A stretch of DNA of 64,000 nucleotides from a virus. Below, one piece after another: positions 28,766 through 59,850 of this stretch. The position numbers and the translations under genes are program-made. The notes below the pieces were generated by a model. That model saw only the letters and a list, made by a program, of their open reading frames with translations. It searched no databases and was not told the DNA's origin. Each line of letters opens with the position of its first letter. Position 1 is the first letter of the stretch. The stretch covers positions 1-64,000 of the IMG/VR virus record IMGVR_UViG_3300014050_000003; one strand, written 5' to 3'.

Positions 28766-28771
28766 ACTATG

Positions 28772-28800: not shown

Positions 28801-28810
28801 TATTTATATA

Positions 28811-29353: not shown

Positions 29354-29357
29354 ATAA

Positions 29358-29534: not shown

Positions 29535-29540
29535 AATATG

Positions 29541-29568
29541 ATTATATTATAAATATAAATATTGTCAA
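29541..29568 (-). promoter_or_regulatory. Sigma70-type promoter placed for a leaderless mRNA
   Basis: TTGACA (29563-29568), 16-nt spacer, TATAAT (29541-29546), 6 nt, ATG 29534: both boxes match the sigma70 consensus exactly. Confidence 0.8.
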
Positions 29569-29580
29569 GTTTTATAAAAT

Positions 29581-33597: not shown

Positions 33598-33637
33598 ATA
33601 TCTTCTATATTAAATTATAATATAGATATTATTAAAG

Positions 33638-33865: not shown

Positions 33866-33872
33866 ATAATTA

Positions 33873-33880
33873 ATTACACG
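33873..33880 (-). promoter_or_regulatory. GTGTAAT box
   Basis: CGTGTAAT followed by 7 nt and ATG 33865. Member of the box family also found before 35046, 47252, 47606, 56157, 56947 (minus) and 60423. Confidence 0.5.
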
Positions 33881-33885
33881 ATAAT

Positions 33886-33972
33886 CGGGGCGAGTAGGAT
33901 TCGAACCTACGAATGTATTTCTACATCGGCAGTTTAGTAAACTGCTGTTTTAAACCGCTCAACCATCGCCCC
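33886..33972 (-). tRNA. tRNA-Ser (ACT)
   Basis: 87-nt type II tRNA: acceptor GGGGCGA/TCGCCCC, G73, D-stem GTT/AAC, anticodon arm GCAGT-TTACTAA-ACTGC, long variable arm ATGTA/TACAT and T-loop TTCGAAT. The central anticodon is ACT, reading AGT. Bacterial AGY-reading tRNA-Ser normally carries GCT, so A34 is unusual. No CCA encoded. Confidence 0.9.
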
Positions 33973-33975
33973 CAT

Positions 33976-34047
33976 CTCCCAAACTAGGATTTGAACCTAG
34001 AACACCCTCGTTAACAGCGAGGCGCTCTACCATTGAGCTATTTGGGA
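33976..34047 (-). tRNA. tRNA-Asn (GTT)
   Basis: 72-nt cloverleaf on the minus strand: acceptor TCCCAAA/TTTGGGA, G73, anticodon arm CCTCG-CTGTTAA-CGAGG with anticodon GTT, T-loop TTCAAAT. Three nucleotides separate it from tRNA-Ser. It reads the very common AAT codon. Confidence 0.93.
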
Positions 34048-34052
34048 ATAAA

Positions 34053-34229
34053 TCAAATTATTTTAAAAACTTTAAGCATTATTATGCCAGACATAATAAT
34101 ACCAACAAATCCAGTAATTGTTCTAATAAGTTCCATTTTATGGTTATGCTTGTCTACCCATATCTCAAACTTATCTCTGAGTTTACCAGCTTTTTCTAAT
34201 TTCTTGAGTTTCTTTTTACTTATTTTCAT
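34053..34229 (-). CDS. Small membrane protein (58 aa)
   Basis: MKISKKKLKKLEKAGKLRDK..., a basic N-terminus and one C-terminal TM span GFVGIIMSGIIMLKVF. Its stop is a few nt from tRNA-Asn. ATGA overlap with the upstream gene. Function unknown. Confidence 0.55.
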   Translation of the reverse strand: MKISKKKLKKLEKAGKLRDKFEIWVDKHNHKMELIRTITGFVGIIMSGIIMLKVFKII

Positions 34230-34390
34230 TTTTTTGAAATATAAAAATTATTTTTACCTTTTGGACATAATTTAATTATATATTCTTTTGCGGATTTATA
34301 ACCTTCTTTTGTTAAAGGAAATACTCCATGAAGAAAATTATCATTTTTAGAATGAATAGCGTAATATTTTTGTTTTTTAGTTTTAGGCAT
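34226..34390 (-). CDS. Small basic protein (54 aa)
   Basis: MPKTKKQKYYAIHSKNDNFL..., containing KEGYKSAKEYIIKLCPKG. The pattern resembles small caulimovirus/RNase H1 N-terminal-like (viroplasmin) modules (YYAI...G...W-less), but the match is partial. Function unknown. Confidence 0.5.
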   Translation of the reverse strand: MPKTKKQKYYAIHSKNDNFLHGVFPLTKEGYKSAKEYIIKLCPKGKNNFYISKK

Positions 34391-34556
34391 TTTTTTGTCT
34401 TTCATATTCTTGTATTAAATCTCTTAATAATTTAAGATGATGTACATCCCAACTATCTCCTGTGTCAGTTTTTTCTTTGTTTAAAAGGTCATAATATACG
34501 TTTTTTTCTATTATTTGATTCAATAGTGTTAGTATTTTATCATATAAATTATTCAT
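34383..34556 (-). CDS. Small acidic helical protein (57 aa)
   Basis: MNNLYDKILTLLNQIIEKNV..., with SWDVHHLKLLRDLIQEYE. Promoter TTGACT-17-TATAAT ends 6 nt before ATG 34556 and overlaps the divergent tmRNA promoter. Function unknown. Confidence 0.6.
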   Translation of the reverse strand: MNNLYDKILTLLNQIIEKNVYYDLLNKEKTDTGDSWDVHHLKLLRDLIQEYERQKNA

Positions 34557-34562
34557 TAATAT

Positions 34563-34591
34563 ATTATATTAGAATATTTGCAAAAAGTCAA
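34563..34591 (-). promoter_or_regulatory. Leaderless-type promoter overlapping the tmRNA promoter
   Basis: TTGACT (34586-34591), 17-nt spacer, TATAAT (34563-34568), 6 nt, ATG 34556. It shares 14 nt with the rightward promoter at 34578-34605, so the two could compete. Confidence 0.7.
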
Positions 34592-34605
34592 AAATCGTGT
34601 ATAAT
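34578..34605 (+). promoter_or_regulatory. Sigma70-type promoter of the tmRNA
   Basis: TTGCAA, 16-nt spacer, TATAAT (34600-34605) preceded by TG. The predicted start is near 34612, about 15 nt before the mature tmRNA 5' end. Confidence 0.75.
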
Positions 34606-34626
34606 CTTATATAGTTCTTTTACATT

Positions 34627-35014
34627 GGGCCCGAATTGGTTTCGATTTTATAGATCGAAATTAAAATGCAAGTGGAGGTTGAATCGAGGACTCCTTAAAA
34701 AGTTTCAATTATATTAACTGCCAAAACAGCTAAATATAAAGGTCATATCTCTGCTAGAGTTTCTCTAGTCGAGGAGACCGCTTCTGTAGCTTAAGTTCTA
34801 CAGCGTGACTACCTTGACACATCTATTGGATAGTTGCGTAATTAGATGTCTTATTATTAATAGTTTTTTTATTCTATTAATATTAAGTATTAAAAATAAA
34901 ATCGCTAAGTATGTTTGTTCTTTATCTATATGAAGCTAAAAACAAAAAGAACTAAACTTGTAGTATTTTAATTTAAATCTTTAAAAGACCGCAGTTCAAC
35001 TCTGCGCGGGTCCA
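34627..35014 (+). ncRNA. ssrA: tmRNA (ssrA), tag EETASVA
   Basis: 5' GGGCCCG pairs with 3' CGGGTCC, giving the G3-U70 wobble that identifies tRNA-Ala, and A73 at 35014. The T arm is CGCAG-TTCAACT-CTGCG. Conserved D-arm mimic GGTTTCGA and ATGCAAGTGGAGG match tmRNA. After TAGTC (34766-34770) the resume codon GAG 34771 opens GAG GAG ACC GCT TCT GTA GCT TAA, a tag EETASVA (plus Ala from the charged tRNA). About 388 nt, no encoded CCA. It would rescue stalled ribosomes using host SmpB. Confidence 0.92.
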
Positions 35015-35029
35015 AGTTTATTAAAAATA

Positions 35030-35037
35030 AGTGTAAT
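35030..35037 (+). promoter_or_regulatory. AGTGTAAT box
   Basis: AGTGTAAT followed by 8 nt and ATG 35046, directly downstream of the tmRNA. Candidate late-promoter element. Confidence 0.5.
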
Positions 35038-35045
35038 ATATCAAT

Positions 35046-35387
35046 ATGCAAACAATTAATGTAAAAATAATAATAAATTCAATTCCTAAAACAATTCAAT
35101 CCGAGAATACTCGTCCTTGCCCAAGAGTTAATTGTTTTAAATATCCGCAAATTCCAGTTGATTTAAATAAAAAAGGTGAATATTATTTTAATTATGAAGT
35201 AAAAACTAAAAAGGGCGAGAGATGTGGTATAGATATATTTAGTTGGACAAATAATGATGTACAAATAATAAGCAATCCAAGATTACCAATAGAACAGCAA
35301 CCAGCTGGAGATAATTTAGATCAAATAAAAAGGACTATAAATATATTAAAACCTGGAGATTATAGTTTTATAATAGATATTACATAA
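35046..35387 (+). CDS. Hypothetical protein (113 aa)
   Basis: MQTINVKIIINSIPKTIQSE..., beta-strand-rich with CPRVNCFKYPQIPVD in the middle, resembling a small immunoglobulin-like or structural domain. It has the late-type AGTGTAAT box and is on the opposite strand to its neighbours. May be a virion component; inference. Confidence 0.55.
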   Translation: MQTINVKIIINSIPKTIQSENTRPCPRVNCFKYPQIPVDLNKKGEYYFNYEVKTKKGERCGIDIFSWTNNDVQIISNPRLPIEQQPAGDNLDQIKRTINILKPGDYSFIIDIT

Positions 35388-35408
35388 ATTATTATTTATT
35401 AATAATTT
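35386..35408. terminator. Bidirectional hairpin between convergent genes
   Basis: AAATTATTA-TTTAT-TAATAATTT, a 9-bp A/T stem between the stops at 35387 (+) and 35392 (-). The stem overlaps both gene ends. Confidence 0.5.
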
Positions 35409-36156
35409 CTTCTAATAAGGCGATTAATTTATTTTGTTTTGATAATTCTCCAGCGATATTATGTTTATCAATATTAAATGGATAGTAAATAATATTTTTA
35501 AATTTTTTAATTCTTTTTATTCTTGCTTGTTCTTTTATATTTTTAGAATGAACAATATAAATTTCTAACTTATAATTTTTATCGTATTTATAATTAGATA
35601 CAATTGTTTCAATATCTTTATATTCTTTTTTCAAATTTAATAATAATTCTAAAGACTTTTCATATGTTATTCCTCTTTGTTGTGCATAAAAAATTTTATC
35701 AATTCCATATCTTTTAACCATATTTAAAATAATTCTTTTACTTATATATGTAATTGGATTAAATACTATAACTTTGATTTTATTAACATTCTGTAGTGAA
35801 TTCATATTCAAGCTATGGGCTATTGCCCCAAATCCACCCATACTAGTTCCAATAAAAAAAATTTCTTTATATTGATGAAAATTTATTAATTGTTCTAATT
35901 TAGAACATGTTTCTTTTATATTAGAAGAATATTTAGGAATACCATTAATATAATGGCTGCCTTGAATGTCACAAAAAAATAAACTGCTAAAATTAAATTT
36001 GTTTTTAGGGCCAAATGTTTTATAAAAATCAAATTTTATAAAAGAAGTAGCTCCAGTAAATATTACTGCTAATTTATTGGTTTTTTCATTTTTAAAAAAA
36101 AGATAACTTTCTTTTGTGCTATTTTTTAAAAAATAAGTTTCATCATAATCTTGCAT
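35392..36156 (-). CDS. Alpha/beta-hydrolase-like protein
   Basis: 254 residues. The nucleophile elbow FFIGTSMGGFGAIAHSL (GxSxG-like, GTSMG) and a C-terminal YPFNIDKHNIAG with a candidate His indicate an esterase/lipase fold. The neighbourhood of glycan enzymes suggests deacylation of a sugar, but this is not shown. Convergent with 35046-35387. Confidence 0.7.
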   Translation of the reverse strand: MQDYDETYFLKNSTKESYLFFKNEKTNKLAVIFTGATSFIKFDFYKTFGPKNKFNFSSLFFCDIQGSHYINGIPKYSSNIKETCSKLEQLINFHQYKEIFFIGTSMGGFGAIAHSLNMNSLQNVNKIKVIVFNPITYISKRIILNMVKRYGIDKIFYAQQRGITYEKSLELLLNLKKEYKDIETIVSNYKYDKNYKLEIYIVHSKNIKEQARIKRIKKFKNIIYYPFNIDKHNIAGELSKQNKLIALLEEIINK

Positions 36157-36170
36157 AATTTTGCATAATT

Positions 36171-37163
36171 TTAAATGATATTTTTGTTTCCAGAAAAAAT
36201 AATTTCAACATATTCATCAATATTATTACTAATATAAGATTTTATAAAAGATTGCATTGCTTTTAAAGTATTAAATTTATATAGATTATTATTTTGAAAT
36301 AATTTGTATGTATTTATTTGTTCAAGAATATCACATTTATTTATAATTAATTTTGTAACACCAGATATTTTTATAGCATCAATTAATTTATTTAAATTAA
36401 GCCAATTAACAATTCTACGTCTTCCAGTAGTTGACCCAAATTCTTTTCCAATTTCTATTACCATATTCAATACTTCATCATTCCATAAGCTTTCTGGAAA
36501 TAAAGGATCTACGCCACTTTTTGTATCATAAATTTTAGCTACTCCAATTATATCTCTTATTTTTTTAGGACTAAAACCTAAAGAGCAAGCATTATAAGGT
36601 AAAGTTTCGCTACTTGTTACATATGGATAATCTCCATAATTTATATCTAACCAAAAACTCTGCGCACCTTCACAAAGAATATTCCCTTTAAGTTCTCCAT
36701 CCCAAATATATTTTTTATCAATATAATCTTTTGCTAATTTTCCAATTCGTAGCATTTTGTCTGCATATGCTGGAGCAATTCCTTGTCCAGTTGTGCCAAG
36801 TTTTGGTTTTAAGAATTTAAGATCATACTGAATATGTCTTTCAGTAATGATATGAGCTTTAGGACTAACTTTAATTAAAGAAGTGTCGAAGCCTTCTTTT
36901 TGTAAATATTCTATTTCATCAAAAAATTTATCAATATTGATAACGCAATTTGGACCGATAATACTAAGTTTATCTTGAAAAACTCCACAAGGAATAATAT
37001 GAGTTTTATATTTTTTATCATTAAGATAAACTGTATGACCTGCGTTTGGACCGCCATTCCAACGACAAACAATATCATAATTTTTAGCAATAGCATTACT
37101 TATCTTGCCTTTGCCTTCATCTCCCCAAGCTAAACCGAAAATAATATCAACTGCTTTGACCAT
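36171..37163 (-). CDS. Adenylosuccinate synthetase (PurA-like)
   Basis: 330 residues from ATG 37163 (MVKAVDIIFGLAWGD), which overlaps the upstream SEC-C gene. The GTP-binding loop WGDEGKGK (residues 13-20) keeps the catalytic Asp 15, and NGGPNAGHT, KLGTTGQGIAP and SSETLPYNAC follow. Bacterial PurA is about 430 residues; this is nearer the short archaeal/phage form. It joins Asp to IMP (or possibly a deoxynucleotide). The retained Asp argues against classical PurZ of 2-aminoadenine phages. Confidence 0.88.
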   Translation of the reverse strand: MVKAVDIIFGLAWGDEGKGKISNAIAKNYDIVCRWNGGPNAGHTVYLNDKKYKTHIIPCGVFQDKLSIIGPNCVINIDKFFDEIEYLQKEGFDTSLIKVSPKAHIITERHIQYDLKFLKPKLGTTGQGIAPAYADKMLRIGKLAKDYIDKKYIWDGELKGNILCEGAQSFWLDINYGDYPYVTSSETLPYNACSLGFSPKKIRDIIGVAKIYDTKSGVDPLFPESLWNDEVLNMVIEIGKEFGSTTGRRRIVNWLNLNKLIDAIKISGVTKLIINKCDILEQINTYKLFQNNNLYKFNTLKAMQSFIKSYISNNIDEYVEIIFSGNKNII

Positions 37164-37404
37164 TTTGTTTTTTAGCAATTTCTTCTAAATAATTAACAAG
37201 CATTTTTTTACAAAAATCATATCCTTCCTTACCACAACAATGCTTAAATTTCTTTCCTTCCAAGGCGCATAAATCATTTCTGCCCATTTTAGGCGCTACT
37301 CTATGAATTGGTGCTCCACCATAAGCTCTAATATATGGAGTATCTACATGACTAAAATCAATTTTTTGATTAGATGAGCTAGAGCTATTATTTTCTGTTT
37401 CCAT
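37147..37404 (-). CDS. SEC-C zinc-motif protein (85 aa)
   Basis: METENNSSSSSNQKIDFS, then MGRNDLCALEGKKFKHCCG, the SEC-C zinc-binding motif (CxnCC-type as in the SecA C-terminus). Probably an adaptor or nucleic-acid/protein binding module. Overlaps the PurA-like gene by 17 nt. Confidence 0.75.
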   Translation of the reverse strand: METENNSSSSSNQKIDFSHVDTPYIRAYGGAPIHRVAPKMGRNDLCALEGKKFKHCCGKEGYDFCKKMLVNYLEEIAKKQNGQSS

Positions 37405-37405
37405 T

Positions 37406-37618
37406 TTATGGATACTCTACTGATGGAGATCTTAAATCAAAGATAGAAACTTTTTCAGTTTCTCCAGACAATCTTTTTACAATTACATTGGCTTCATCAA
37501 TAACAGAATCTACCTGTCCATAATAATAATCATTCTTTACATAATCTTTAATTATTACCATTTTTCTTCCAATAATCTTTTTTAAGATATTTAGTTTTAT
37601 GTTATTTTTAATACTCAT
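37406..37618 (-). CDS. Hypothetical protein (70 aa)
   Basis: MSIKNNIKLNILKKIIGRKM..., beta-rich, KNDYYYGQVDSVIDEAN, ending RSPSVEYP; resembles a small SH3-like barrel. TTGACG-17-TAATAT lies 7 nt before ATG 37618. Confidence 0.55.
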   Translation of the reverse strand: MSIKNNIKLNILKKIIGRKMVIIKDYVKNDYYYGQVDSVIDEANVIVKRLSGETEKVSIFDLRSPSVEYP

Positions 37619-37642
37619 TATATTAATATATTACTTTATATT

Positions 37643-38335
37643 TTATATTTCGTCAATATCATTTATTTGTATTAATTTAATTTTATTATTTTTATTAATT
37701 AAAATATAAGATGCTTGTTTTTCACAAAAACTTCCAGTATTAATGTATTTTTCGGTTTGTTCTGGTAAATGAGTATGACCACAAATTATAGTATTATAAC
37801 CATTCATATCAATATATTTGATAGCGTTTTGTTTGATATCGGAGCTTTTTTCAACAAAATCATTTGTATGATGTTTAAATATTCTAAAAAAATCATCTGC
37901 AAATGGAGTATAATGTCTAACAAAATAATATGCTTTTATAATAAAATTAGTAATCCACTTATATTTTGTGAAATAAATATCAAAAATATCGCCATGAACT
38001 ACTAATATTTTTTTATCTTTTAATTCTATGATATGTTCGTCCTTACAATTAAATCCAAGAAGAATACTCATAAACTCTGCTTTAAGAAAACAATGATTGC
38101 CAATCAAATAAATTATTTTAGATTTTTTAGAAAGCTTGCGTAATTTAGACAATACTTTCCAATGAGTTTTATTTAGTCTGTGTAAATTGTGGTGGTCAAA
38201 AAGATCCCCAGCAATTATAATAGTTTTCGCTTTGTTTTGTTTTAAAACTTTTAATAATAATTCAGCTTTACAATCTTTATCTCCAAGATGAATATCTGAT
38301 ATTATTAAATATTTATTTTGTTTCCTGTGAGCCAT
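37643..38335 (-). CDS. Calcineurin-like metallophosphoesterase
   Basis: 230 residues: SDIHLGDKDCK, AGDLFDHHN, GNHCF, VVHGDIFD and CGHTHLPE give the full two-metal phosphoesterase motif set. It resembles UDP-2,3-diacylglucosamine pyrophosphatase-type enzymes; substrate could be a nucleotide or lipid. Overlaps the upstream gene by 23 nt. Confidence 0.82.
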   Translation of the reverse strand: MAHRKQNKYLIISDIHLGDKDCKAELLLKVLKQNKAKTIIIAGDLFDHHNLHRLNKTHWKVLSKLRKLSKKSKIIYLIGNHCFLKAEFMSILLGFNCKDEHIIELKDKKILVVHGDIFDIYFTKYKWITNFIIKAYYFVRHYTPFADDFFRIFKHHTNDFVEKSSDIKQNAIKYIDMNGYNTIICGHTHLPEQTEKYINTGSFCEKQASYILINKNNKIKLIQINDIDEI

Positions 38336-38744
38336 TATTTTTAGTTCTTAAATAGTTAATTACAACTAACAAATTTAAAATATCTTTTTCTTTAATGTTT
38401 TTAGGATCGCAAAAATCAGTTGTAGTCTTAAATTCGTGACAATAAAAATTTATTGTCTCAGCTATTTTTGATGCTAAAGAATAAGATATTTCTATATTTT
38501 GACTAACATTAGATAATGGTTTAAATAAAGCCCAAATTTGATTTTTTTTATTTATAAGTGATGATCTGACGATATCATTTTTTTCTAATTCTTGTAAAGC
38601 AAGTAAAACCATCGCTTTTTCTTCTTCTGGTTCTTTACCTGTTATTCCTAATAAATCTCTATATTTAGAAAGTTCAAATATAGAATTATTTTCGAAATAA
38701 TTTAATAATAACACTACATATTCTACAATAGTTTTATTTTCCAT
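38313..38744 (-). CDS. Hypothetical protein (143 aa)
   Basis: ATG 38744 (MENKTIVEYVVLLLN) overlaps the end of the GMP-reductase-like gene and is preferred over TTG 38750. Two helical parts; the C-terminus KDILNLLVVINYLRTKNN. No family recognised. Confidence 0.55.
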   Translation of the reverse strand: MENKTIVEYVVLLLNYFENNSIFELSKYRDLLGITGKEPEEEKAMVLLALQELEKNDIVRSSLINKKNQIWALFKPLSNVSQNIEISYSLASKIAETINFYCHEFKTTTDFCDPKNIKEKDILNLLVVINYLRTKNNGSQETK

Positions 38745-39840
38745 GAGCAAAACTTTCGTACATATTATTTGCTGTTGTTCTGACGGCTATTATTTTACCT
38801 GTCCATAATCCACCACGCATCTCTTCTATAGTTCTAAAACCAAGATAACTCATAGTACTTCTAAGTCCATTAGCAAAATCATAAACTACATCTTCTATTG
38901 ATTTATCTTGAATAAGAGGAATCATTGTTTTATCTCCTTCTACAAAAAGATTTTTCTTACTACCATCGTATAGTTCATAATCCTCTACTACATCTTTACT
39001 TGCCATTCCTCTGTATACTGCAAATAATTTACCATCTTTTTCTACAATATTTTCTTCATCAACAACATCACTCAATCCAGCAAATATTCTTCCGCAAATT
39101 ACTCCATCTGCTCCACTTGCAATAGCTTTAGCTAAATCTCTTGGATTTCTAATTCCACCATCTGCAAGAATACTTGGTCTATTTTCTTCTTTAGGATTTT
39201 CTTGTCTAAAATGATCCAAATTAGATAATTGATAATTTCTAATTGCAGTCCAAGCATAAGATAATCCAGTAACACTTGGACAACCAATTCCAGTTTTAAT
39301 TTGAGTTAAACACATACTTCCTGGACCAATCAAATGTCTAAATCCGTCAGCTTTCAAATTCGCTAATCTATAAACGCTTGCTTTGGTAAGTGTATTTCCA
39401 ACAATAATATCTTGTTTATATTGAGACTGCTTATACCATATTAAGAAATCTTCGACACTTTTAGCCAAACCATTAGCAGTATCTAAAAAGAATATATCTG
39501 TATATTTAGATAGTCCTTGAATCCTTTCTAAGGCATCTTTTAAACCAATAGCACATATTGATCTTCCACTTTCATCTTTAATTTTTTTAGCTTTAAGCGA
39601 TTGTTCCTCAACAGGCATGAACCTATGAAGAACTCCAGCACAACCAATTTTATTAGCCTTGATACACGACTTAACAGAAGAAACTGTATCCATCGGTGAT
39701 AATACTATCGGAATATCAATATAGTTGTTTTTAGAAATTTTCGTTCTTGTACTTACTTCTTTTCTTGAAACTATATCTGAAAAATTAGGTAAAAGTGAAA
39801 TATCATCATATCCGATAGCTTCTTTAAAAATTACTTGCAT
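38734..39840 (-). CDS. GMP reductase-like protein (IMPDH/GMPR family)
   Basis: 368 residues. FFLDTANG (IMPDH has D-x-AHG at this site), GPGSMCLTQIKTGIGCP with the catalytic Cys, DGGIRNPRDLAKAIASGAD and NGLRSTMSYLG point to GMP reductase. The segment after RGMASKD lacks the long IMPDH flap and there are no CBS domains. It would convert GMP to IMP with NADPH, feeding the PurA-like enzyme 1.6 kb away. Promoter TTGACT-17-TATTAT ends 6 nt before ATG 39840. Confidence 0.8.
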   Translation of the reverse strand: MQVIFKEAIGYDDISLLPNFSDIVSRKEVSTRTKISKNNYIDIPIVLSPMDTVSSVKSCIKANKIGCAGVLHRFMPVEEQSLKAKKIKDESGRSICAIGLKDALERIQGLSKYTDIFFLDTANGLAKSVEDFLIWYKQSQYKQDIIVGNTLTKASVYRLANLKADGFRHLIGPGSMCLTQIKTGIGCPSVTGLSYAWTAIRNYQLSNLDHFRQENPKEENRPSILADGGIRNPRDLAKAIASGADGVICGRIFAGLSDVVDEENIVEKDGKLFAVYRGMASKDVVEDYELYDGSKKNLFVEGDKTMIPLIQDKSIEDVVYDFANGLRSTMSYLGFRTIEEMRGGLWTGKIIAVRTTANNMYESFAHGK

Positions 39841-39846
39841 TGTAAA

Positions 39847-39875
39847 ATAATAATATAAATATATTAATTAGTCAA
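39847..39875 (-). promoter_or_regulatory. Sigma70-type promoter placed for a leaderless mRNA
   Basis: TTGACT (39870-39875), 17-nt spacer, TATTAT (39847-39852), 6 nt, ATG 39840. Confidence 0.7.
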
Positions 39876-40655
39876 GATATTTTTACCATATTCTAAAAGA
39901 GCATTTTTACTTCTCATTCCATGAACAATAGCGGGATTTATAATAAATTTTTCCATAGTCATATAAGATACCCATTCCCATGTTTTATCTTTTGGTAAAA
40001 TTCCACTAAAATTAGTTGTCCAATCAGAAGCCCAATAGTTAAAATATTTTTCTGCAAATCTATTTCTTATATCCTTACTTGACATGTGAGATATATATCC
40101 TATTGATACTTCTTCTGGAACAGTATGATTTTTAAGTTTTAAATAATTATGAGATTTAAAAGCTAAATCAAAAGCTTGGTTTGCGAAATCTTTTTTGCAA
40201 ATCCAAAAACCACCATTTGTGTTTCTTATTTCGTTAGATACAACTCCTAATTCTTGAAAATATTTAACTAGATCTTGATTTTTTATACCCCACCAATCCT
40301 GTCTTTGAGTTTTAATTGAATTTACTGGACTTTCTAGAAATGAATGCCAAGGATCTCCATTTAAAATTTCTTCTATACCTATATCTGGCTTTCTAACAAA
40401 AAAATGATCTGCATCAATAAAAACAAATATATCATAGTCTAATTTTGCTATTTCTTTTAAGTAATGAAATTTAAAAAATTGTAATTGATCTAATTGTATT
40501 GTGTCGATTAAATTATGATTTTTAGCATATTTTAATTCTCTATCAGAAAAAATATGAAAATCTTCTGTCATACCTACATCTTTAAATGATTTTAACAAAG
40601 ATTGTAATATATAAGAATATTGCCCCCAAGCTATTGACCAATAACATATCTTCAT
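39864..40655 (-). CDS. GT-A glycosyltransferase (DxD)
   Basis: 263 residues. IFVFIDADHFFVRKP contains the DxD metal-binding motif and NTNGGFWICKKDFA the acceptor-side pattern of GT6/GT8-like enzymes. Last gene in a run of glycosyltransferases, 4-nt overlap upstream. Substrate unknown. Confidence 0.75.
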   Translation of the reverse strand: MKICYWSIAWGQYSYILQSLLKSFKDVGMTEDFHIFSDRELKYAKNHNLIDTIQLDQLQFFKFHYLKEIAKLDYDIFVFIDADHFFVRKPDIGIEEILNGDPWHSFLESPVNSIKTQRQDWWGIKNQDLVKYFQELGVVSNEIRNTNGGFWICKKDFANQAFDLAFKSHNYLKLKNHTVPEEVSIGYISHMSSKDIRNRFAEKYFNYWASDWTTNFSGILPKDKTWEWVSYMTMEKFIINPAIVHGMRSKNALLEYGKNILTN

Positions 40656-41695
40656 ATCATTTTTAAAAATGCAAAATTTTTATTTTGATGTAAATTAAAT
40701 TGACCTACTAAAACTTTATTTTTTTCAAAAAGTTTTTTACTTGTTCTAAAATAAGAAGTCATTTGCCGATCTTTATTAAGAATAATAAGAATATCATCTT
40801 TAATTTTCCAAAAACTTTCGTTTTCATTGCAGCTTTTTATGGAAAAATCTTCATTTAAAATAAAATTTTCACAAAATAAAGTACATTTTTTTAAATTATT
40901 TAATTCAAAAAATTTAAATTTTTTGCCTATTATATATTCTCTTATAAAATCTGAATTAATTAAATTTTTATAATTTTCATCTTTTAAATAATGAATATGG
41001 TAGTATTTCCCTCCATTTAAAGAAAATTGATCAATAAGATTTGCAAAATGAATAAATTTACATGGAATAACAGGAATTTTATTTATAAATGCCATAAGGC
41101 TCAATCCATGATCGCTGGGTACATTTTCATTTATTAAAGATGTTAAAATATCTATATTTTCTAATATTTTTTTAAAAAACCCATGACTTTGAATACTACA
41201 TTCCCATTCATGAACCCAATAAGTAGGAATAAATTCTAAATTATTTGATTGTTTTTCAATAATAATGTTATTATTTAATAATACTTCTTTAATTTTTGGA
41301 TGAAAATCGTGCAATTCTCCGCAAGTAAGATGCATTGGTATATTGTAATCATAAATTGAATCTAATCTATCCACTAATCCACTTATATCAGTAGATGAAT
41401 CATCGTCTACTTGGATATGCCATCTAGTAGAATTGCTAATATAAGTTGAATTATTAACATAAAATGAATATATTTTTTCTCCTATAGTGTCTTTTTCAAA
41501 ATAAAAAAAATTTACTGGATAAGGAAATTTTATATTCTCGAATGCTTTCTTGTCTCTTTCGCATACAAGAGCATTTAAAATAATTTTTTTATTTTTTATA
41601 TTCAAAAGGCCATATTTTAAAAAATTTTGAAAAGCTTTTATATATTTATCTTTAGATAAAGAAAACATGCAGGTAATCATTAAATCATATTTCAT
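40652..41695 (-). CDS. Glycosyltransferase-like protein
   Basis: ATG 41695 (MKYDLMITCMFSLSK) is preferred; the frame is open to 41707. RWHIQVDDDSSTD has a DDD metal site; later HEWECSIQSHGFF and PSDHGLSLMAF. Probable GT-A fold. Overlaps its neighbours by 4-11 nt. Confidence 0.65.
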   Translation of the reverse strand: MKYDLMITCMFSLSKDKYIKAFQNFLKYGLLNIKNKKIILNALVCERDKKAFENIKFPYPVNFFYFEKDTIGEKIYSFYVNNSTYISNSTRWHIQVDDDSSTDISGLVDRLDSIYDYNIPMHLTCGELHDFHPKIKEVLLNNNIIIEKQSNNLEFIPTYWVHEWECSIQSHGFFKKILENIDILTSLINENVPSDHGLSLMAFINKIPVIPCKFIHFANLIDQFSLNGGKYYHIHYLKDENYKNLINSDFIREYIIGKKFKFFELNNLKKCTLFCENFILNEDFSIKSCNENESFWKIKDDILIILNKDRQMTSYFRTSKKLFEKNKVLVGQFNLHQNKNFAFLKMI

Positions 41696-42707
41696 TAAAA
41701 ATATCAATCCATTCTTTTAAATGTTTTTCTTTATTGCACCAAATTTCTTTACATATTTGATGAGCTTTTAAACCCATTTGTTTTCTAAGCATGAAATTTT
41801 TTTCAAGTTCTTGTGCTTGATATTTACATTCTTCATAAGAATTCCAAAGAAATCCAGTTTCTTTATCTATTATTTGATTAGGAAAATTATATTTGTTAGG
41901 TGCAATAATTGGTAATCCATTCAAAGCTGCTTCTATAATTGCTCTACTTTGATTTTCTATAAACATTTGATGACTATTATAAACATAAACATCTAATGAA
42001 TTTAAAAAATTAGATGTAATTTCTTGATTTGGTTTCAAAAGATCCCATTTAGAATCGAATTTATACCATAAAAATCTTGTTTTAAAATTATCAGAAATGC
42101 CCATTACCCTATATTTTGGATTTTTTAAATCTAAATTATGATAAAATAAAGGGAAATCATCTGAAAATTTTAAATTATCTGGTCTGCTATGTTTGCCTAT
42201 GGTAAAAATATTTTTAAATTTTCTTTCATAATAACAATATGAATTTGCATCAAAATAGTTTGGAATAATAAATTCTTTTGAGTTTTCTGTAAATTCATTT
42301 TTCATTTTTTCTTTATGAAATTTACTTGTATACAAGTAAGCATCTATCATTTTATTTTTTAAAGCTTCTTCTTCGTGTTCTGTATGCCACATCATATCAT
42401 TCGACCATATAAATTTTAATCCAGAATTTTTAATTTGGTCAAGTCTCCATTTTTCGGAAAATAATCTAAAATTACAAAAAGATAAGGCAATCCCATTAAG
42501 TTTTTTAGGAAGTGATTTATATGTCTCTATATCTATATTGTTGTCTAATAAAAAATCAATATTATGTTTTTCTAAAACTCTAAAGTCATCATTTGGAATA
42601 CATGTAACTTTAAAATCTTTAATACTACCAAAAAGTTTTAATAAATCTTTTAATCTTGTATCTGCTCCGCCAAGTTCAGATATCCATTGAAATATATAAA
42701 TATTCAT
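41685..42707 (-). CDS. GT4-type glycosyltransferase
   Basis: 340 residues. WISELGGADTRLKDLLKLF near the N-terminus and the GT-B donor-binding region QSRAIIEAALNGLPIIAPN followed by ETGFLWNS near the C-terminus. Likely uses a nucleotide sugar. Overlaps the 97-residue gene upstream by 1 nt. Confidence 0.75.
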   Translation of the reverse strand: MNIYIFQWISELGGADTRLKDLLKLFGSIKDFKVTCIPNDDFRVLEKHNIDFLLDNNIDIETYKSLPKKLNGIALSFCNFRLFSEKWRLDQIKNSGLKFIWSNDMMWHTEHEEEALKNKMIDAYLYTSKFHKEKMKNEFTENSKEFIIPNYFDANSYCYYERKFKNIFTIGKHSRPDNLKFSDDFPLFYHNLDLKNPKYRVMGISDNFKTRFLWYKFDSKWDLLKPNQEITSNFLNSLDVYVYNSHQMFIENQSRAIIEAALNGLPIIAPNKYNFPNQIIDKETGFLWNSYEECKYQAQELEKNFMLRKQMGLKAHQICKEIWCNKEKHLKEWIDIFNEI

Positions 42708-52461: not shown

Positions 52462-52842
52462 ATGGCAAATGAAGGGCTTATCTTTCCAAAACTTAATGAA
52501 AGACAAAAAGATCTTTATCTTAAAATAATTACTAATTTACAAACTTATGGTTATTTTGATAGAGGGATTGGATCAAATGGAATTCAATATTTAAGTGCAG
52601 AACAAAATCCTTTTAAAAAACAAAATCTTGAATGTGAATATTGCGTATTCTATTATTTAGAAGGCGATAAACCAAGATGTGAATTGATTCAAGGAGATAT
52701 AGATAACGAAGGATGGTGCAAATTTTGGATAATTTCTGATGAAGATATCAAAAAAGAATCTCAAGCAGCTTTTAAAGTTTTAAATAAAAAGAATAAAATT
52801 ATTGAAATTACATACAGATTGGATGATAAACAAACTAAATAA
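52462..52842 (+). CDS. Small structural-type protein with four Cys (126 aa)
   Basis: MANEGLIFPKLNERQKDL..., CEYCVFYYLEGDKPRCELI and EGWCKFW give C-x2-C...C...C, similar to phage proteins described as high-potential iron-sulfur-like. Follows the head protein by 4 nt. Zinc or Fe-S binding possible. Confidence 0.6.
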   Translation: MANEGLIFPKLNERQKDLYLKIITNLQTYGYFDRGIGSNGIQYLSAEQNPFKKQNLECEYCVFYYLEGDKPRCELIQGDIDNEGWCKFWIISDEDIKKESQAAFKVLNKKNKIIEITYRLDDKQTK

Positions 52843-53353
52843 ATTTTGGAATTGGAAATCGAAAACATTATTAGTTGGGCTCGTATTAATCGTATCTTGG
52901 ATCGCTTGTTTAAAAATTGGTTTTGAACTTAAAAAATATAGCAATATAACAAATCTTCCAAATTCCTGTTTTGTAGATGCAATGATTTATGCTTCTCAAT
53001 GCAATCTTCTTTTAACTACAAATACTGAAATATGGAATAGTGTTTATGGTTTTACTTTTCATTATAAGGATGATAAAGAAAATATGCTTGGTCATGCTAT
53101 CTGTGTTTTTGAGTATAAGAATAATTTATGGGTATATGATCCTAATTGGGGTACATCGCCAATATGTCAAACTGGAGATAAAAAACAATATAGAGAAAAA
53201 ATAAGATTGTATATTAATGAACATTACCCTATAATAGTAATAGAGGATTTTATGCTAAATGATTGGACATATGTTCAAAAAATAAAGAAAAATAAAATGA
53301 ACAAATCTTATCAAGAGGTGTCTATACATTTAGATGAATACAAAAAGGAGTAA
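52823..53353 (+). CDS. Membrane-anchored cysteine-peptidase-like protein
   Basis: 176 residues from ATG 52823 (overlaps the previous stop). One TM span (LLVGLVLIVSWIACLKIGF), then NSCFVDAMIYASQC, LGHAICVFEYKNN and VYDPNWG: a Cys...His...Asp order as in papain-like/transglutaminase-like peptidases. It lies 6 nt upstream of the PEP-CTERM gene and faces the envelope, so it might process that protein. Both fold and link are inference. Confidence 0.55.
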   Translation: MINKLNKFWNWKSKTLLVGLVLIVSWIACLKIGFELKKYSNITNLPNSCFVDAMIYASQCNLLLTTNTEIWNSVYGFTFHYKDDKENMLGHAICVFEYKNNLWVYDPNWGTSPICQTGDKKQYREKIRLYINEHYPIIVIEDFMLNDWTYVQKIKKNKMNKSYQEVSIHLDEYKKE

Positions 53354-53359: not shown

Positions 53360-55294
53360 ATGAAAATAAACCTATTAAAAAGGTTATTAAAAAATACAAC
53401 CGCAAGTTTAGTTGCGGTTTTTTTATGCTCAAATGCCAAAGCTGCAACATTATATTGGGATACTAATGGTACAACTTCTGGAGTTGGTGGTACTGGAAAT
53501 TGGACCACTACAGGAACAACATGGTCTACAGATCCTAATGGAACAACTACAACCGTATCTGGAGGGTGGACAAGTGCGGGAACAGGACCAACTAATATAG
53601 CCGTATTCCAAGGAACAGCTGGTCAAGTTACTTTAAGTAGCAGTACTGTATACGCAAATAATGTTCAAGTAAATTCTTCTGGTTATACTTTTTGGAATAG
53701 CGGAACAACATCTTCTCAAAATAGATATATCAGAAGCACAAATGGTATTACTTTGGGTGCAGGAGTAAATTTAAACTGGGGATCAGCTGGTGCAGTTTTG
53801 GGACTAACTGGTCCTATAAATGGTGGGACAGGTTCACTATTAACTATTGTTGGTAGTACGGATGCTTCTACTGGTGTTAATTCAAAAATTGGGCTTTCTT
53901 CTAACGCTATAGCAACAGTTATCAATGTACCTATGACTGTAGCTACTACAGGTACAGGATATGCAGTAGTATCTGTAACTGATTCTTCTACTACAAATAG
54001 AATTAACGGAAATATTACCATTAATAATGGATCAAGACTTATTCTTGGCACAGGATCATCTACTAGCAGAGCATTAATTGTTTCTGGTGATATTACATCA
54101 TCTGCAGATGGCGCACTATCTATTAATGAGAGTGGTAATACTGGTCTTGTAGAATTAAGAGGAAGCAATACTATAACTGGAGATATTAATGTATATGGCC
54201 AATTAGGATATGCTAATAAAAATGCATTTGGTACAGCGAGATTAATTCTTAACCAAGGTGCAACTTTAGGTCAAAGCCAAACTATTGGTGATAATAGTGA
54301 TGCAGCAAGAATGATTAATAATAATATTCTACTAAATGGAGATGTTACTATTGGCGGATTAAGTTGGGCAAATATTCTTGGTGGTAATATAGATTTAAAT
54401 AATGCTACTAGATCTATTAAAGTAGACAACTCTACTACTATTTATGGAGGATTTGTTAATAGCACTACAGGTTTAATATTTACAAATAGTTCAAGTTCTG
54501 TAGGAGGTAGAACAATGGCATTTAATGGCGCTAGTGCATATTCTGGTAATACATATTTTAATTCTAGTGGAACAGGTTGGAATATTAGCGTTAATAATAC
54601 TAATGGATCTGCTTTTGGAACTGGAAATGTTTATGTATATAAAGGAACTTCTCTAAGCGCAAATAATACAGGCACAACATTAAATGGAAATGGAATTATT
54701 GCTGGAACAATTGGTGGAGATGCTATTGTAAGTCCAGGAAATAGTCCAGGATTATTAACTGTAGGAGCAGTAGATCCAAGTGGAGGAATGAGCTTTGCAT
54801 TTGAAATTACTAGTAATTTATTACATAATGGTACATCATATAATAATGATGTATTGAAAATAACAAATAGTCAACCATTTACTGTAGCATTAACATCTGC
54901 AAATGTTGTTAATCTATATCTAAATTCAAATGCATATAATTTAATGTATAATAATTTACTCAATAGTTTAAATTCTACATTTCAAGCTGGATTTTTTAAT
55001 GCTAATGATTTTAATACTGATATAGCAAATGCAACTTATAATATGTATTTTCAAAGTGGCTTTGGAACATTAACATTCAATGGTTTAACATACGAAACAT
55101 ATAATGAGTTTTTAACAAGAACAGGCTCTCAAGACGTTTCTTATTCTATAAATACAAGTCAAACTACATTGACTGACTCTACTCTTGGATATATTTCAAC
55201 TGTTAATATAATACCAGAACCTTCTCCGTTTAGTCTTTTAGCATTTGGTTCCGCAGCTTTATTAGTAGCTAGGAGATTGAGAAGAAATGGATAA
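53360..55294 (+). CDS. PEP-CTERM surface protein with beta-strand repeats
   Basis: 644 residues. Signal peptide MKINLLKRLLKNTTASLVAV... cleaved near AKA/ATLYW; then TLYWDTNGTTSGVGGTGNW and glycine/threonine/asparagine-rich repeats as in autotransporter-associated beta-strand proteins. The C-terminus IIPEPSPFSLLAFGSAALL then VARRLRRNG is a full PEP-CTERM sorting signal (PEP, TM, Arg cluster). Strong AAGGAG. Exosortase would come from the host. G/C-richer than neighbours: likely acquired from a host such as Verrucomicrobiota. Confidence 0.85.
   Translation: MKINLLKRLLKNTTASLVAVFLCSNAKAATLYWDTNGTTSGVGGTGNWTTTGTTWSTDPNGTTTTVSGGWTSAGTGPTNIAVFQGTAGQVTLSSSTVYANNVQVNSSGYTFWNSGTTSSQNRYIRSTNGITLGAGVNLNWGSAGAVLGLTGPINGGTGSLLTIVGSTDASTGVNSKIGLSSNAIATVINVPMTVATTGTGYAVVSVTDSSTTNRINGNITINNGSRLILGTGSSTSRALIVSGDITSSADGALSINESGNTGLVELRGSNTITGDINVYGQLGYANKNAFGTARLILNQGATLGQSQTIGDNSDAARMINNNILLNGDVTIGGLSWANILGGNIDLNNATRSIKVDNSTTIYGGFVNSTTGLIFTNSSSSVGGRTMAFNGASAYSGNTYFNSSGTGWNISVNNTNGSAFGTGNVYVYKGTSLSANNTGTTLNGNGIIAGTIGGDAIVSPGNSPGLLTVGAVDPSGGMSFAFEITSNLLHNGTSYNNDVLKITNSQPFTVALTSANVVNLYLNSNAYNLMYNNLLNSLNSTFQAGFFNANDFNTDIANATYNMYFQSGFGTLTFNGLTYETYNEFLTRTGSQDVSYSINTSQTTLTDSTLGYISTVNIIPEPSPFSLLAFGSAALLVARRLRRNG
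53398..53424 (+). terminator. Intrinsic-terminator-like hairpin inside the PEP-CTERM signal peptide
   Basis: AACCGCAA-GTTTAG-TTGCGGTT followed by T tract (seven Ts in total), in codons 13-22. A textbook Rho-independent shape within coding sequence; it could attenuate transcription when translation lags. Confidence 0.65.
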
Positions 55295-55526
55295 TAGATT
55301 GAAAACTTTATTAAAAGAAAATTATTATACTCCGACTTCAGAACAAACAGAAAAATTTATAAATAATTTTCATCAATATAGAGCTAAAAAGAAAGCTGAA
55401 GAAAAAACATATTATTCTTTAGGATTAATAATTTTATTAATTATTACTTTATTAGGATCAATCGCTATAAAAGAAACAACAAATAAATTAGATATTCAAA
55501 CTTCTGCAGGAGAAGTTAAAAAATGA
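55287..55526 (+). CDS. Single-TM protein (79 aa)
   Basis: MDNRLKTLLKENYYTPTSEQ..., a helical N-terminal half, TM span GLIILLIITLLGSIAI and a short polar tail. Starts 8 nt inside the PEP-CTERM gene end, implying coupling. Function unknown; possibly a helper for the surface protein. Confidence 0.55.
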   Translation: MDNRLKTLLKENYYTPTSEQTEKFINNFHQYRAKKKAEEKTYYSLGLIILLIITLLGSIAIKETTNKLDIQTSAGEVKK

Positions 55527-55855
55527 AAAAGATATTATTAATTATATTAGCAGCAATAGCTTTAACTACTTATTGTTATACAGAAAATCAAATTAAGGTA
55601 AGTATTAAAAGAAATAATAAGGGCGAAATTTTATTAAATATAACTGGGCATACTTCTCCAATTATTATAGAAATGGATGGAAAATTTACTACATTTAATG
55701 TTGGGGATAAAGAATTAAATCTTGATGAGGCTATAAGCGTTGAAGTTCCATCGCTTGATACATCAAGTGGAGTTGAAAAATCTAATACTGATGCTCAATC
55801 TCCTGTACCACCAGTTAATATGAATGCTTATCCAGAAGCGGCTACTCCATTTTAA
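55523..55855 (+). CDS. Secreted protein (110 aa)
   Basis: A signal-like N-terminus MKKILLIILAAIALTTYC precedes beta-rich GEILLNITGHTSPIIIEMDG and a Pro-rich C-terminus. Exported; no family recognised. Overlaps the 79-residue gene by 4 nt. Confidence 0.55.
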   Translation: MKKILLIILAAIALTTYCYTENQIKVSIKRNNKGEILLNITGHTSPIIIEMDGKFTTFNVGDKELNLDEAISVEVPSLDTSSGVEKSNTDAQSPVPPVNMNAYPEAATPF

Positions 55856-55875: not shown

Positions 55876-56142
55876 ATGTTATCTAAGATTAAAAATTGGT
55901 GGAAAGATTTAAAATATTACGATAAAGTTTTCTTTATTACATTTATTCCAGCTATGCTTTTTACTCTTTGGGGTATGAGCGATCTTTATATTAATTATTT
56001 TGATGAATTAACAAAGCAAGATCATATGCAGTTTTTTTTAAGAATATTTTTTCCTATATCATTAGCGACTTTAATAACAGTATTAGAACGCAATAAAAGA
56101 CAAAAGTTAATAAAAGATATTAAAAACTATCTCAGCGAATAG
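55876..56142 (+). CDS. Two-TM protein (88 aa)
   Basis: MLSKIKNWWKDLKYYDKVFF..., hydrophobic segments around FITFIPAMLFTLWGM and FFPISLATLITVL with charged ends. A GTGTAA-like box lies 9 nt before the ATG. Small size and topology would suit a holin-like or host-envelope role; unproven. Confidence 0.55.
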   Translation: MLSKIKNWWKDLKYYDKVFFITFIPAMLFTLWGMSDLYINYFDELTKQDHMQFFLRIFFPISLATLITVLERNKRQKLIKDIKNYLSE

Positions 56143-56156: not shown

Positions 56157-56870
56157 ATGAGTTTAATTATAAATTCAACTTTCATAGTTAAAAAATCTAA
56201 AATTAAAAATGGTTTAACTCAACAAACTGCTGGTGATAGCGCTTATCAAATCAAAACAGATTTTCCAAGCAGCGCAGATGGTCTTTATTGGATTAAAAAT
56301 AATAATATAAATGGAGCAAACCCATTTCAAATTTATGCTGATATGACAACTGATGGTGGAGGATGGACATTAATAATGTTAAATAATTATAGTTCTGGAT
56401 GGACTTATGAAAATACAATTTTAAGAAATGAATCTAATCCACCAGCTTCTCCAGATGATAGACCAAGACAAGGCGAAGGATCAGATGGTTCAGATAATTA
56501 TAGTATAATAAGTTATGCAGATTATATTAAAAAATCTTCTAGCGGATTTCAATATATGATTGATGCATATCAAAGAGGACATTGGGGAGGAATTTGGACA
56601 GCAAATGATAATTATAGTTTCATAGCAACAAATAATACTCAAACAAATATAACTTTAAATACAAAATTTGACAATTGGGAGTATTCTCAAGGCGGAGGCA
56701 TCGATCAAAGAATGCCTTGGTATGTAAATTCTCAAGCTTTTATTACTACAGATGACGAGGGGCATACATATTGGTGGGGAACACTAATACCTGCAGGAGG
56801 ATGGTCTCCAACCCCATGGATTGAAAATTTAATGCCACATCCTGGAATTATTTGGTATTGGGTTAGATAA
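56157..56870 (+). CDS. Fibrinogen-like-domain protein, possible adhesin
   Basis: 237 residues. SSADGLYWIKNNNINGANPF, QIYADMTTDGGGWTLIM match the start of fibrinogen C-terminal (FReD) domains (GxYWI...PFxxYCDMxTDGGGWTLI). The rest is Trp/Gly-rich. Such domains bind glycans. Position next to the tail fibre suggests a receptor-binding virion protein; inference. Confidence 0.65.
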   Translation: MSLIINSTFIVKKSKIKNGLTQQTAGDSAYQIKTDFPSSADGLYWIKNNNINGANPFQIYADMTTDGGGWTLIMLNNYSSGWTYENTILRNESNPPASPDDRPRQGEGSDGSDNYSIISYADYIKKSSSGFQYMIDAYQRGHWGGIWTANDNYSFIATNNTQTNITLNTKFDNWEYSQGGGIDQRMPWYVNSQAFITTDDEGHTYWWGTLIPAGGWSPTPWIENLMPHPGIIWYWVR

Positions 56871-57018: not shown

Positions 57019-59850
57019 ATGTCATTAGAATTAACGACAGCGACAGATCAGCAGTTATCAGGAATAAGGCAAACTCTAAAAACGGTAAGTTTAATTGGAG
57101 ACGAGAGCATTAGTGGAGTTAAAATTTTTGAAGGTGATGGCGTAAGTGATGGCGATCCGATTAAATCAAAAATATTAATAAATCCTATTGGATTATATAA
57201 TTTTGATTTTCCTACAACATATAATGTACCAACAATTAGTGGTTATCCATTATTAGATTTAAGAGGAGGATATGGGAATAGTAATGCTTATATACAAATA
57301 TTTGATGGAGTAATATATGCTTATTCTCCAGATTATTTAAAAATAGAAGGCGCACCAGTCGCAATAAATGATCAAAGTATATATGGAGTAGGAATAGGAA
57401 CAGATAATCCAAGTGAAAAATTACATGTAGTTGGTAATATAAAAGCTTCTAATAATATTTATGCTAATAATTTAGTTTATATTACTGGAAATCAAACAAT
57501 AGATGGTCAAAAAACTTTTAATTCTTTAATATATTTTTCTGGCGGAGCAAATATTAATATGCTTAGCGGAGCAGATGGGCGCGGAGGTTCAATTGATCTT
57601 TCAAATAATAATGCAGCAAATTTTTCAATTCAAACAGGAAATTTACCAACCCAAAACGATGGTTCAATTTATAATAAAATAAATGACTCATTATATCTTA
57701 GAAAAAATTCAGTTTGGGAAAAAGTAATAACAAATAAAGATAATCCTATTTATGCTACTGGGGATCAAAATATTAGTGGTTTAAAAACTTTTAATTCTGA
57801 ATTTTTTACATCAATGTGGGATGATGATGAAGTTATCTTATCAAATCCAGCTGTTCAAATTAAAAATAGTTTAAAAATAGCATCATATGATACTAGTAAT
57901 TATTTTGATCAACCAAAAATAATTTTGAGTGATGCTGGACTACTAAAATCTACTGGCCCTAAAGCAGGTTTAGAATATAGATCAATAACTCTTGGAGTAA
58001 ACATAATAGATGATTTAAATGGTGCAGATATTAGAAAAATATATTCTGGACAAAATGCTCCAATAGTAAGTCTAAATGCTGGTCCAGCAAGTTACTCTGC
58101 AAGAGATGGAATTTTAATATCAAATAATAAAAGTGCAACCTTTAACAATCAAAATGATTATATTTTATTTATTGATACTGATACGGGATCTAATACATAT
58201 GGTGGAGTTAAAATAGGAGGACTAGATAATTCTAATATTAGAAAAAATGTAACAAATCCAATAGCTCCTGGTTTTCTATTAGATGTAAACGGAAATATTA
58301 AAGCAAATAATTTAATTTATAATACTGGCGATCAAACTATAAGTGGAGTTAAAACTTTTAATAGCGGATTAAGTACAACATATATTTCTGGAGTATCAGG
58401 AAGTAGTTTAAATATATTAGGATGCTCTGATTCAATATCAGCACAAACTTTACGCAATATAAATATAACAGCGGGTTCAGGAACATCTACGATAGATGCA
58501 GGAGATATAATTTTAATAGGTGGCAATTTAAGTGGATTTGCGCCAAGTATATTAAAAACTGGCGCAAGTATTACTATTGGCGGCGCAAAGACTTCTTCAT
58601 ATACTGCAGATATAACTATAAAACCTTCAATTGATCAGAATGGGGCTGCTGGAAATATTGTTATTCAAGCAGGAGCAACTCCAACTTACAATGGTAAAAT
58701 TAATATGTTTGGTGATATAAATATTAATGGCACAAATGATATGGGGTCACCATTATCATCAAAAAATATAAACATATACAGAAGAGGCGATCTTCTTGGC
58801 TTTCCATCTCAAAGACTTGCTATTTCAATAGATAATAATAATGTTAATTTTCAAAATGAAATGGGACTACAAGTAAGTGGCGTACAAGTAACTCCAAGTC
58901 TTTATGTTCGTACAATTGGAGATCAAAGTATTAGTGGAGCAAAAACATTCTTTTCTGGATTAAATATAGCCAATGGCACTTTAAATTTAAATAATTCATA
59001 TTTATCTGGCGAAAATATTAAACCATCTACTGGAATATCTTTATACAATAGATCAACGACAGCAAGAAATATTTTAACTCAAGTAGATAGTGAAGGAAGA
59101 AGTTTGGCTTTCCAGCCTAATTTAGCAACAAATAGAATAATTAATTTCCAATCAAGATCTAATTCTACTTCAAGTACAAATGCGGGTTTTGGTATCAATT
59201 TAGCTACAAGCGGCATATTAGCTCGACCAGTTTATATGAAAGTCGGAGATGTATTAGGATCATTACCAAGGATTGGGTTTCAACACACGGGAGGATTAAA
59301 TGAAGCAGGAGTTACCAATAATGTTGATCAAAATATTTTTAGAGGCACAGGAGGACTTGGTGGATTTTTCTTTCAAGCAAGATTTGGAATAAGTGAAAAT
59401 AATATAAGTACAAGTGGTCGAGGATTTTTTGGATTATGGGATAAACAAACCGTACTTGTAACAAATTCTACATTTGATCCATATTCCTCTAATCGTCAAA
59501 ATCTTATTGGAGTAGGATTTAATAGCGGAGACTCAAATTTAAGTTTTATTCATTCAGATTCTACTTCTCCAGGTACAGATAATGTTAATAGAAAAAAAAT
59601 ATCATTAGGATCAAATTTCCCAATTAGAAGTGGAAATGTATATGAATTAAGTATATATGGATTGCCAGATAAATCTTATGTAGATATGAATATTTCTATA
59701 TTAAGAAGCGGAATATCAACAGGATACAGAGCAACCACAGCTCTTCCTGCCGCAGATTATGCATTAGCTCCAAATTTTTCAGTAAATGGACCAATTGCAT
59801 CAGGAAATATTGCTTTTGATTTATCTAATTTTTATATAGACACTCAATAA
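57019..59850 (+). CDS. Tail fibre with repeated GDQxISGxKTF units
   Basis: 943 residues. Five spaced units (IGDESISGVKIFEG, TGNQTIDGQKTFNS, TGDQNISGLKTFNS, TGDQTISGVKTFNS, IGDQSISGAKTFFS) are a known phage tail-fibre repeat. Between them, Gly/Ser/Asn-rich beta sequences fit a trimeric fibre. IGTDNPSEKLHVVGNIKA is also typical. It presumably binds the host surface. The C-terminus ends NFYIDTQ. Confidence 0.82.
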   Translation: MSLELTTATDQQLSGIRQTLKTVSLIGDESISGVKIFEGDGVSDGDPIKSKILINPIGLYNFDFPTTYNVPTISGYPLLDLRGGYGNSNAYIQIFDGVIYAYSPDYLKIEGAPVAINDQSIYGVGIGTDNPSEKLHVVGNIKASNNIYANNLVYITGNQTIDGQKTFNSLIYFSGGANINMLSGADGRGGSIDLSNNNAANFSIQTGNLPTQNDGSIYNKINDSLYLRKNSVWEKVITNKDNPIYATGDQNISGLKTFNSEFFTSMWDDDEVILSNPAVQIKNSLKIASYDTSNYFDQPKIILSDAGLLKSTGPKAGLEYRSITLGVNIIDDLNGADIRKIYSGQNAPIVSLNAGPASYSARDGILISNNKSATFNNQNDYILFIDTDTGSNTYGGVKIGGLDNSNIRKNVTNPIAPGFLLDVNGNIKANNLIYNTGDQTISGVKTFNSGLSTTYISGVSGSSLNILGCSDSISAQTLRNINITAGSGTSTIDAGDIILIGGNLSGFAPSILKTGASITIGGAKTSSYTADITIKPSIDQNGAAGNIVIQAGATPTYNGKINMFGDININGTNDMGSPLSSKNINIYRRGDLLGFPSQRLAISIDNNNVNFQNEMGLQVSGVQVTPSLYVRTIGDQSISGAKTFFSGLNIANGTLNLNNSYLSGENIKPSTGISLYNRSTTARNILTQVDSEGRSLAFQPNLATNRIINFQSRSNSTSSTNAGFGINLATSGILARPVYMKVGDVLGSLPRIGFQHTGGLNEAGVTNNVDQNIFRGTGGLGGFFFQARFGISENNISTSGRGFFGLWDKQTVLVTNSTFDPYSSNRQNLIGVGFNSGDSNLSFIHSDSTSPGTDNVNRKKISLGSNFPIRSGNVYELSIYGLPDKSYVDMNISILRSGISTGYRATTALPAADYALAPNFSVNGPIASGNIAFDLSNFYIDTQ

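Follow-up and report, generated by a model that had tools for sequence, protein, structure and literature searches.

The window, which corresponds to bases 1-64,000 of a linear virus record of 121,058 bp, harbours on its plus strand a gene (53360..55294) that codes for a 644-residue protein in a single open frame. Three parts can be distinguished in this protein, namely a predicted Sec signal peptide (residues 1-28; 53360..53443, +), a body rich in β-strands (residues 29-617; 53444..55210, +) and a PEP-CTERM tail (residues 618-642; 55211..55285, +). The signal peptide, MKINLLKRLLKNTTASLVAVFLCSNAKA, precedes the sequence ATLYWD and has an n-region of charge +4, a hydrophobic core and an AKA site; it was called from these sequence features, by reading and with a simple hydropathy/charge script, not with a trained predictor. 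The last 27 residues, IPEPSPFSLLAFGSAALLVARRLRRNG, comprise the PEP motif (55214-55222, +), then a hydrophobic helix (approximately 55229-55270, +) and a basic cluster, RRLRR, at the extreme C-terminus (55271-55285, +). The AlphaFold2 model of the body has strands up to approximately residue 430, with low confidence (pLDDT 53), and nothing in the PDB matched it at E≤0.001. Pfam and PHROG revealed no enzymatic or binding domain in the body, the protein has no PHROG match, and no Pfam family for the C-terminal translocator β-barrel of classical autotransporters was found in it or in the other cargo proteins scanned.

Immediately upstream, a gene (52802..53353, +) codes for a membrane-tethered, putative transglutaminase-like cysteine peptidase, as suggested by Cys, His and Asp residues invariant in 15 phages (PNSCF..GH..YDxNxGT) and by a weak fold match of its model (pLDDT 75) to vasohibins (E 0.017). 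Downstream are three conserved neighbours coding for a 79-residue protein with one transmembrane segment (55287..55526, +), an exported-looking protein of 110 residues also found in relatives (55523..55855, +) and an 88-residue protein with two transmembrane segments (55876..56142, +). They are followed by a putative receptor-binding gene (56157..56870, +), whose product is fibrinogen-like with a score under the Pfam cut-off and whose position is occupied by different variable genes in relatives, and by a gene for a putative tail-fibre or baseplate protein of 943 residues (57019..59850, +), with BppL_N repeats above the cut-off and PHROG matches. An earlier note on this DNA had located the PEP-CTERM gene between head and tail-fibre modules, which is not clear from its surroundings. 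It is flanked by genes for ribonucleotide reductase (RNR) and unassigned genes on one side and by receptor-binding genes on the other, beyond which terminase and portal-like genes are found in relatives. From reading of the sequence, the remainder of the record contains long tail-module genes, including a 1945-residue tape-measure-like open reading frame (ORF), and replication-like genes.

Two further features of the record are of note. A tmRNA gene is present beside tRNAs at positions 34627-35014 of the window (Rfam RF00023, 108.9 bits). By eye, many glycosyltransferase-, methyltransferase- and sugar-metabolism-like ORFs are found at positions 26490-42707 of the window and 64001-74700 of the record, which suggests glycan modification of the surface or of DNA.

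Conservation and composition of the gene

Five other viral contigs (L001-L005) hold orthologues at the same genomic place, with 89-96% identity. They keep the body, the PEP motif and, where covered by the contig, the signal peptide; the L005 contig begins inside the gene. The whole tail, with its succession of PEP, helix and basic cluster, is kept in three of the five (L001, L004 and L005), and the first tail is altered in L002 and L003. The presence in the gene of the elements that the earlier note had described is confirmed. Where the contigs cover them, the neighbours also match those of the window, with the putative cysteine peptidase upstream and the genes for the 79-, 110- and 88-residue proteins, variable fibre genes and an Hsp20 gene downstream. 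Genes for TerL and PhoH are found near the locus in relatives. The body of the protein is under purifying selection, with pairwise dN/dS values between 0.06 and 0.16, mostly approximately 0.08.

The GC content of the gene is 33%. Its GC3 is 0.115 and its GC at fourfold sites 0.072, against means of 0.155 and 0.106 for 28 other genes of the window. These phage-like values indicate that the raised GC stems from amino-acid content and do not point to a recent capture from a host of approximately 50-60% GC; the case for capture that the earlier note had made from base composition is not supported. Homology of cargo bodies to cellular PEP-CTERM proteins might suggest that the gene is a neutral passenger or belongs to host DNA joined to the contig as a chimera. 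Nevertheless, chimerism or host contamination was ruled out by six contigs, derived from several samples, that share the gene and its synteny, and the low dN/dS, the phage-like GC3 and the overlap with a conserved phage gene also make this explanation hardly credible.

That overlap involves the ATG of the gene for the 79-residue protein and the end of the PEP-CTERM gene (AAATGGATAA). As it may contribute to fixing the terminal RNG, these residues were not counted as independent evidence; it explains neither the PEP motif nor the hydrophobic stretch.

Profile searches gave mixed results. All 24 positions of the TIGR02595 model align with residues 618-642, with a score of 10.3 bits by hmmscan (cut-off 16) and of 17.0 bits, above the cut-off, for the same tail in a frame scan of the whole record. 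PF07589, which also aligns with the tail, scored 15.1 bits (cut-off 20.7). Of the two profiles that the earlier note had proposed as a check, TIGR02595 was therefore matched in one type of scan and not in the other, and TIGR02601 gave no match in the NCBIfam scan. Taken alone, the HMM evidence for the 644-residue protein is borderline, and it is the comparative evidence that settles its predicted PEP-CTERM assignment.

The variable cargo slot in related phages

To read the locus in further phages, we anchored on the gene for the 88-residue neighbour and searched with the second of the PEP proteins of L002. The comparison set comprised 28 related phage records, all of them fragments, for a total of 1.73 Mb. 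TIGR02595 was matched above the cut-off in 16 of these records, and all 22 matches found in the 1.73 Mb fall inside a single slot, which has the putative peptidase gene as its upstream border and adjoins conserved membrane-protein genes and receptor-binding genes. As a control in the same search, a chance match above the cut-off was obtained in 2 of 14 genomes, all of a size well beyond that of a phage record. The slot is empty with its flanking genes present in six records (L015, L038, L039, L040, L042 and L043), and it lies outside the contig coverage in six others (L029, L033, L034, L035, L037 and L041). The peptidase gene is conserved in phages with occupied or empty slots alike.

Occupied slots contain one to four PEP-CTERM genes, with approximately ten kinds of body. 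In addition to the 644-residue type, the occupants include LIDFG-domain proteins (L002, L012, L013 and L014), a 280-residue type (L003), a 239-244-residue type (L013 and L014, and in fused form L012), GH16 glycosidases (L012 and L013), a 314-residue type (L013), types with PATR repeats, which are known from autotransporter passengers (L012, L025, L030 and L031), and their homologues (L027 and L028), and a 542-residue type (L027). Proteins with unrelated bodies at the same place pass the TIGR02595 cut-off with the same tail (18.8 bits for L002b and 19.0 bits for L003b), and the PEP motif persists even where the bodies are unrelated. On these comparative grounds, the locus is a variable one with multiple cassettes, and the gene of the window is among its occupants. 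Together with the orthologues and the dN/dS values, the shared tail of unrelated bodies and the confinement of TIGR02595 matches to the slot uphold the earlier proposal of a phage-encoded PEP-CTERM surface protein. The phage group that carries the slot is probably a freshwater one.

The slot of L028 also contains, adjoining a PEP-CTERM gene, a gene for a prepilin-type N-methylation protein (2569-3228; PF07963 just above the cut-off), which may represent another class of exported surface protein. In L001, a membrane protein of the variable region (11049-11942) looks HTTM- or vitamin-K-carboxylase-like by eye.

The cassettes have signal-peptide starts and PEP tails in common, with unrelated bodies between them. 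The window protein and that of L030 are 76% identical across their first 29 residues, with largely different bodies, and the 67% identity between the L001 and L002b proteins is confined to their last 27 residues. A near-identical ATGAAAAAACTAATAAC start occurs in several cassettes, and a repeat around CCAGAACCATCAGCT is common to the L027 tails. L027 also contains a 52-residue remnant in which a signal-peptide start is fused to a PEP tail. In L012b and L013a (L012 2532-4913 and L013 7953-9500), two units form one ORF, the first PEP tail directly joining the second signal peptide; this topology is consistent with a tail helix running out-to-in and a signal helix running in-to-out. We infer that the shared starts and tails, the remnant and the fused units are products of recombination at the shared ends, such that bodies and tails would be swapped between common signal-peptide and PEP-tail coding sequences.

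The tails are not uniform. In L002, L003, L012 and L027, one cargo gene each, never the last unit, has a PEP motif followed by a non-transmembrane sequence in place of the hydrophobic helix (L002 11849-11959, L003 11849-11959, L012 2424-2525 and L027 6077-6202). A search of cellular genomes for this alternative tail (alignment A6) gave a single weak match, whose frame contains a stop. With the hydrophobic tail lost in these proteins, exosortase sorting is not possible for every cargo protein. In addition, some cargo tails are degenerate, with PEM in L013c.

Tail fibres, exosortases and probable hosts

Homology links some cargo bodies with domains of the neighbouring fibres, which are devoid of signal peptides and PEP tails. 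This holds for the GH16 glycosidase (34% identity over 287 residues, E 5e-33), the 314-residue type of L013 (35%, E 1e-15) and the LIDFG protein (28%, E 1e-8). Fibres and exported proteins with a surface tag thus have modules in common, among which GH16 is directed at polysaccharide. Within the same phage group, fibres that degrade or bind polysaccharides (L002 13622-15892 and L015 7902-9932) carry such GH16- or LIDFG-type domains behind a conserved fibre N-terminus and, unlike the cargo, lack both signal peptide and PEP tail. It might be argued from these common domains, and from the position of the slot next to variable fibre genes, that the cargo proteins are adhesins or fibres of the virion and that their tail is a leftover. 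We regard this as very improbable, since fibre proteins have conserved N-termini of their own and neither of the two export elements. The window protein for its part lacks the virion assembly features of tail fibres and has a signal peptide and a PEP tail instead.

An exosortase gene, which the earlier note had suggested looking for, was not found with PF09721 in any of the 28 phage records, all fragments and including that of the window. In cells, the best match of the LIDFG protein (41% identity) is in a Chthoniobacter metagenome-assembled genome (MAG), in which three exosortases and 29 PEP-CTERM matches were found. A genome scan with alignment A1 revealed no relative. A search restricted to the class of that MAG found matches to the body of the 644-residue protein in 11 of 236 genomes, the two best with 52% identity over residues 19-375 and 42% over residues 177-643, PEP tail included. 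Both of these sit on contigs with ordinary cellular genes and come from a single small-genome family of Verrucomicrobiota; of 21 genomes of this family, six match at E≤1e-15. All four matching genomes tested have an exosortase. The best match of the L030 body (51%) is in the same family (G172), and no cellular relative of the L014a body was found at E≤1e-6 in the 236 genomes. These similarities point to this verrucomicrobial family as host or donor, and the gene relatives make small-genome Verrucomicrobiota the most likely hosts. The strong difference in GC content between probable hosts (approximately 50-63%) and phages (approximately 28%) counts against a verrucomicrobial host.

The presence of exosortases in the likely hosts also bears on whether the tail might be only a membrane anchor or stop-transfer sequence, in which case the protein would remain at the periplasmic side of the inner membrane with no exosortase involved. 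The tail does look like an ordinary hydrophobic helix followed by basic residues, it scores poorly against the HMMs, and some cargo tails are degenerate. Nevertheless, a mere anchor would not need the PEP motif that is kept across unrelated bodies, and taken with the exosortases of the likely hosts this makes an anchor-only role unlikely.

Proposed role and comparison with known systems

We consider it probable that the slot provides tailed phages of exosortase-bearing hosts with interchangeable genes for exported PEP-CTERM cargo, and that host sorting of this cargo alters the cell surface. In this scheme, cargo proteins would be exported by Sec during infection, and the host exosortase would recognise the PEP motif and sort them to the outer surface or the exopolysaccharide (EPS) layer, where they would modify the surface of the infected cell. 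The phages thus appear to borrow a surface-protein pathway of their host, and 're-dressing the infected cell', as the earlier note had it, fits best as the role of the PEP-CTERM protein, judging from the sequences. As to its most likely purpose, the cargo may cover or enzymatically remove the polysaccharide receptor of the phage's own fibres, which would prevent superinfection and re-adsorption of the progeny. Given the modules common to fibres and exported proteins, the polysaccharide recognised by the fibres would, on the simplest reading, be masked or degraded by the exported copies, or bound by them in competition. We propose this purpose tentatively; that no receptor-binding or enzymatic domain was recognised in the body of the 644-residue protein itself speaks against it. 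More speculative still is the fuller scheme, in which dedicated, recombining exosortase-substrate cassettes exchange modules with the phage's own fibres and dress the cell, through the host exosortase, in a manner matched to the receptor specificity of the phage, so that the receptor would be masked or destroyed.

The same sorting might serve aggregation or a stronger EPS matrix, so that the infected cell would be shielded or infected cells would stay together with susceptible ones. Cellular PEP-CTERM proteins act in this way in floc-forming bacteria, and floc formation by Zoogloea is reported to require them (PMC9012009); moreover, the β-strand-rich cargo bodies resemble matrix or adhesin proteins. 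GH16 enzymes would rather cut polysaccharide, however, and modules are common to cargo and fibres, so that we deem this purpose rather doubtful.

No report of a phage-encoded PEP-CTERM protein was found in the open-access papers searched, and no relatives of the window or L030 proteins were found in INPHARED (50,697 phage records). To our knowledge, the slot would be the first case of phages using the PEP-CTERM/exosortase pathway. If this is true, phage takeover extends to the surface-sorting system of EPS-forming bacteria. The locus would give a testable route to the function of exosortase-displayed proteins, as well as a sequence marker by which to recognise phages of exosortase hosts that are difficult to culture, probably Verrucomicrobiota.

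The cellular PEP-CTERM/exosortase (EpsH) system is a known one (Haft et al. 2006, PMC1569441), to which the slot would add a phage surface-modification locus using the exosortase signal. The two have in common the signal peptide, the PEP motif, the hydrophobic helix, the basic cluster and the diversity of the bodies. The cellular system is abundant in Verrucomicrobiota, whose genomes hold homologous bodies as well as exosortases. In contrast with cellular PEP-CTERM genes, which mostly form single-gene operons, those of the phages are multi-gene cassettes at one locus, in records without a detected exosortase. Proteins that exclude superinfection by acting at the cell surface are also known from phages, one example being the lipoprotein Llp of T5. 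By analogy, the cargo would likewise consist of phage-encoded exported proteins, with a proposed action at the receptor or close to it. Superinfection-exclusion proteins such as Llp rely on lipoprotein or membrane anchoring, whereas the cargo described here carries a PEP-CTERM tag, and its part in exclusion is proposed from sequence.
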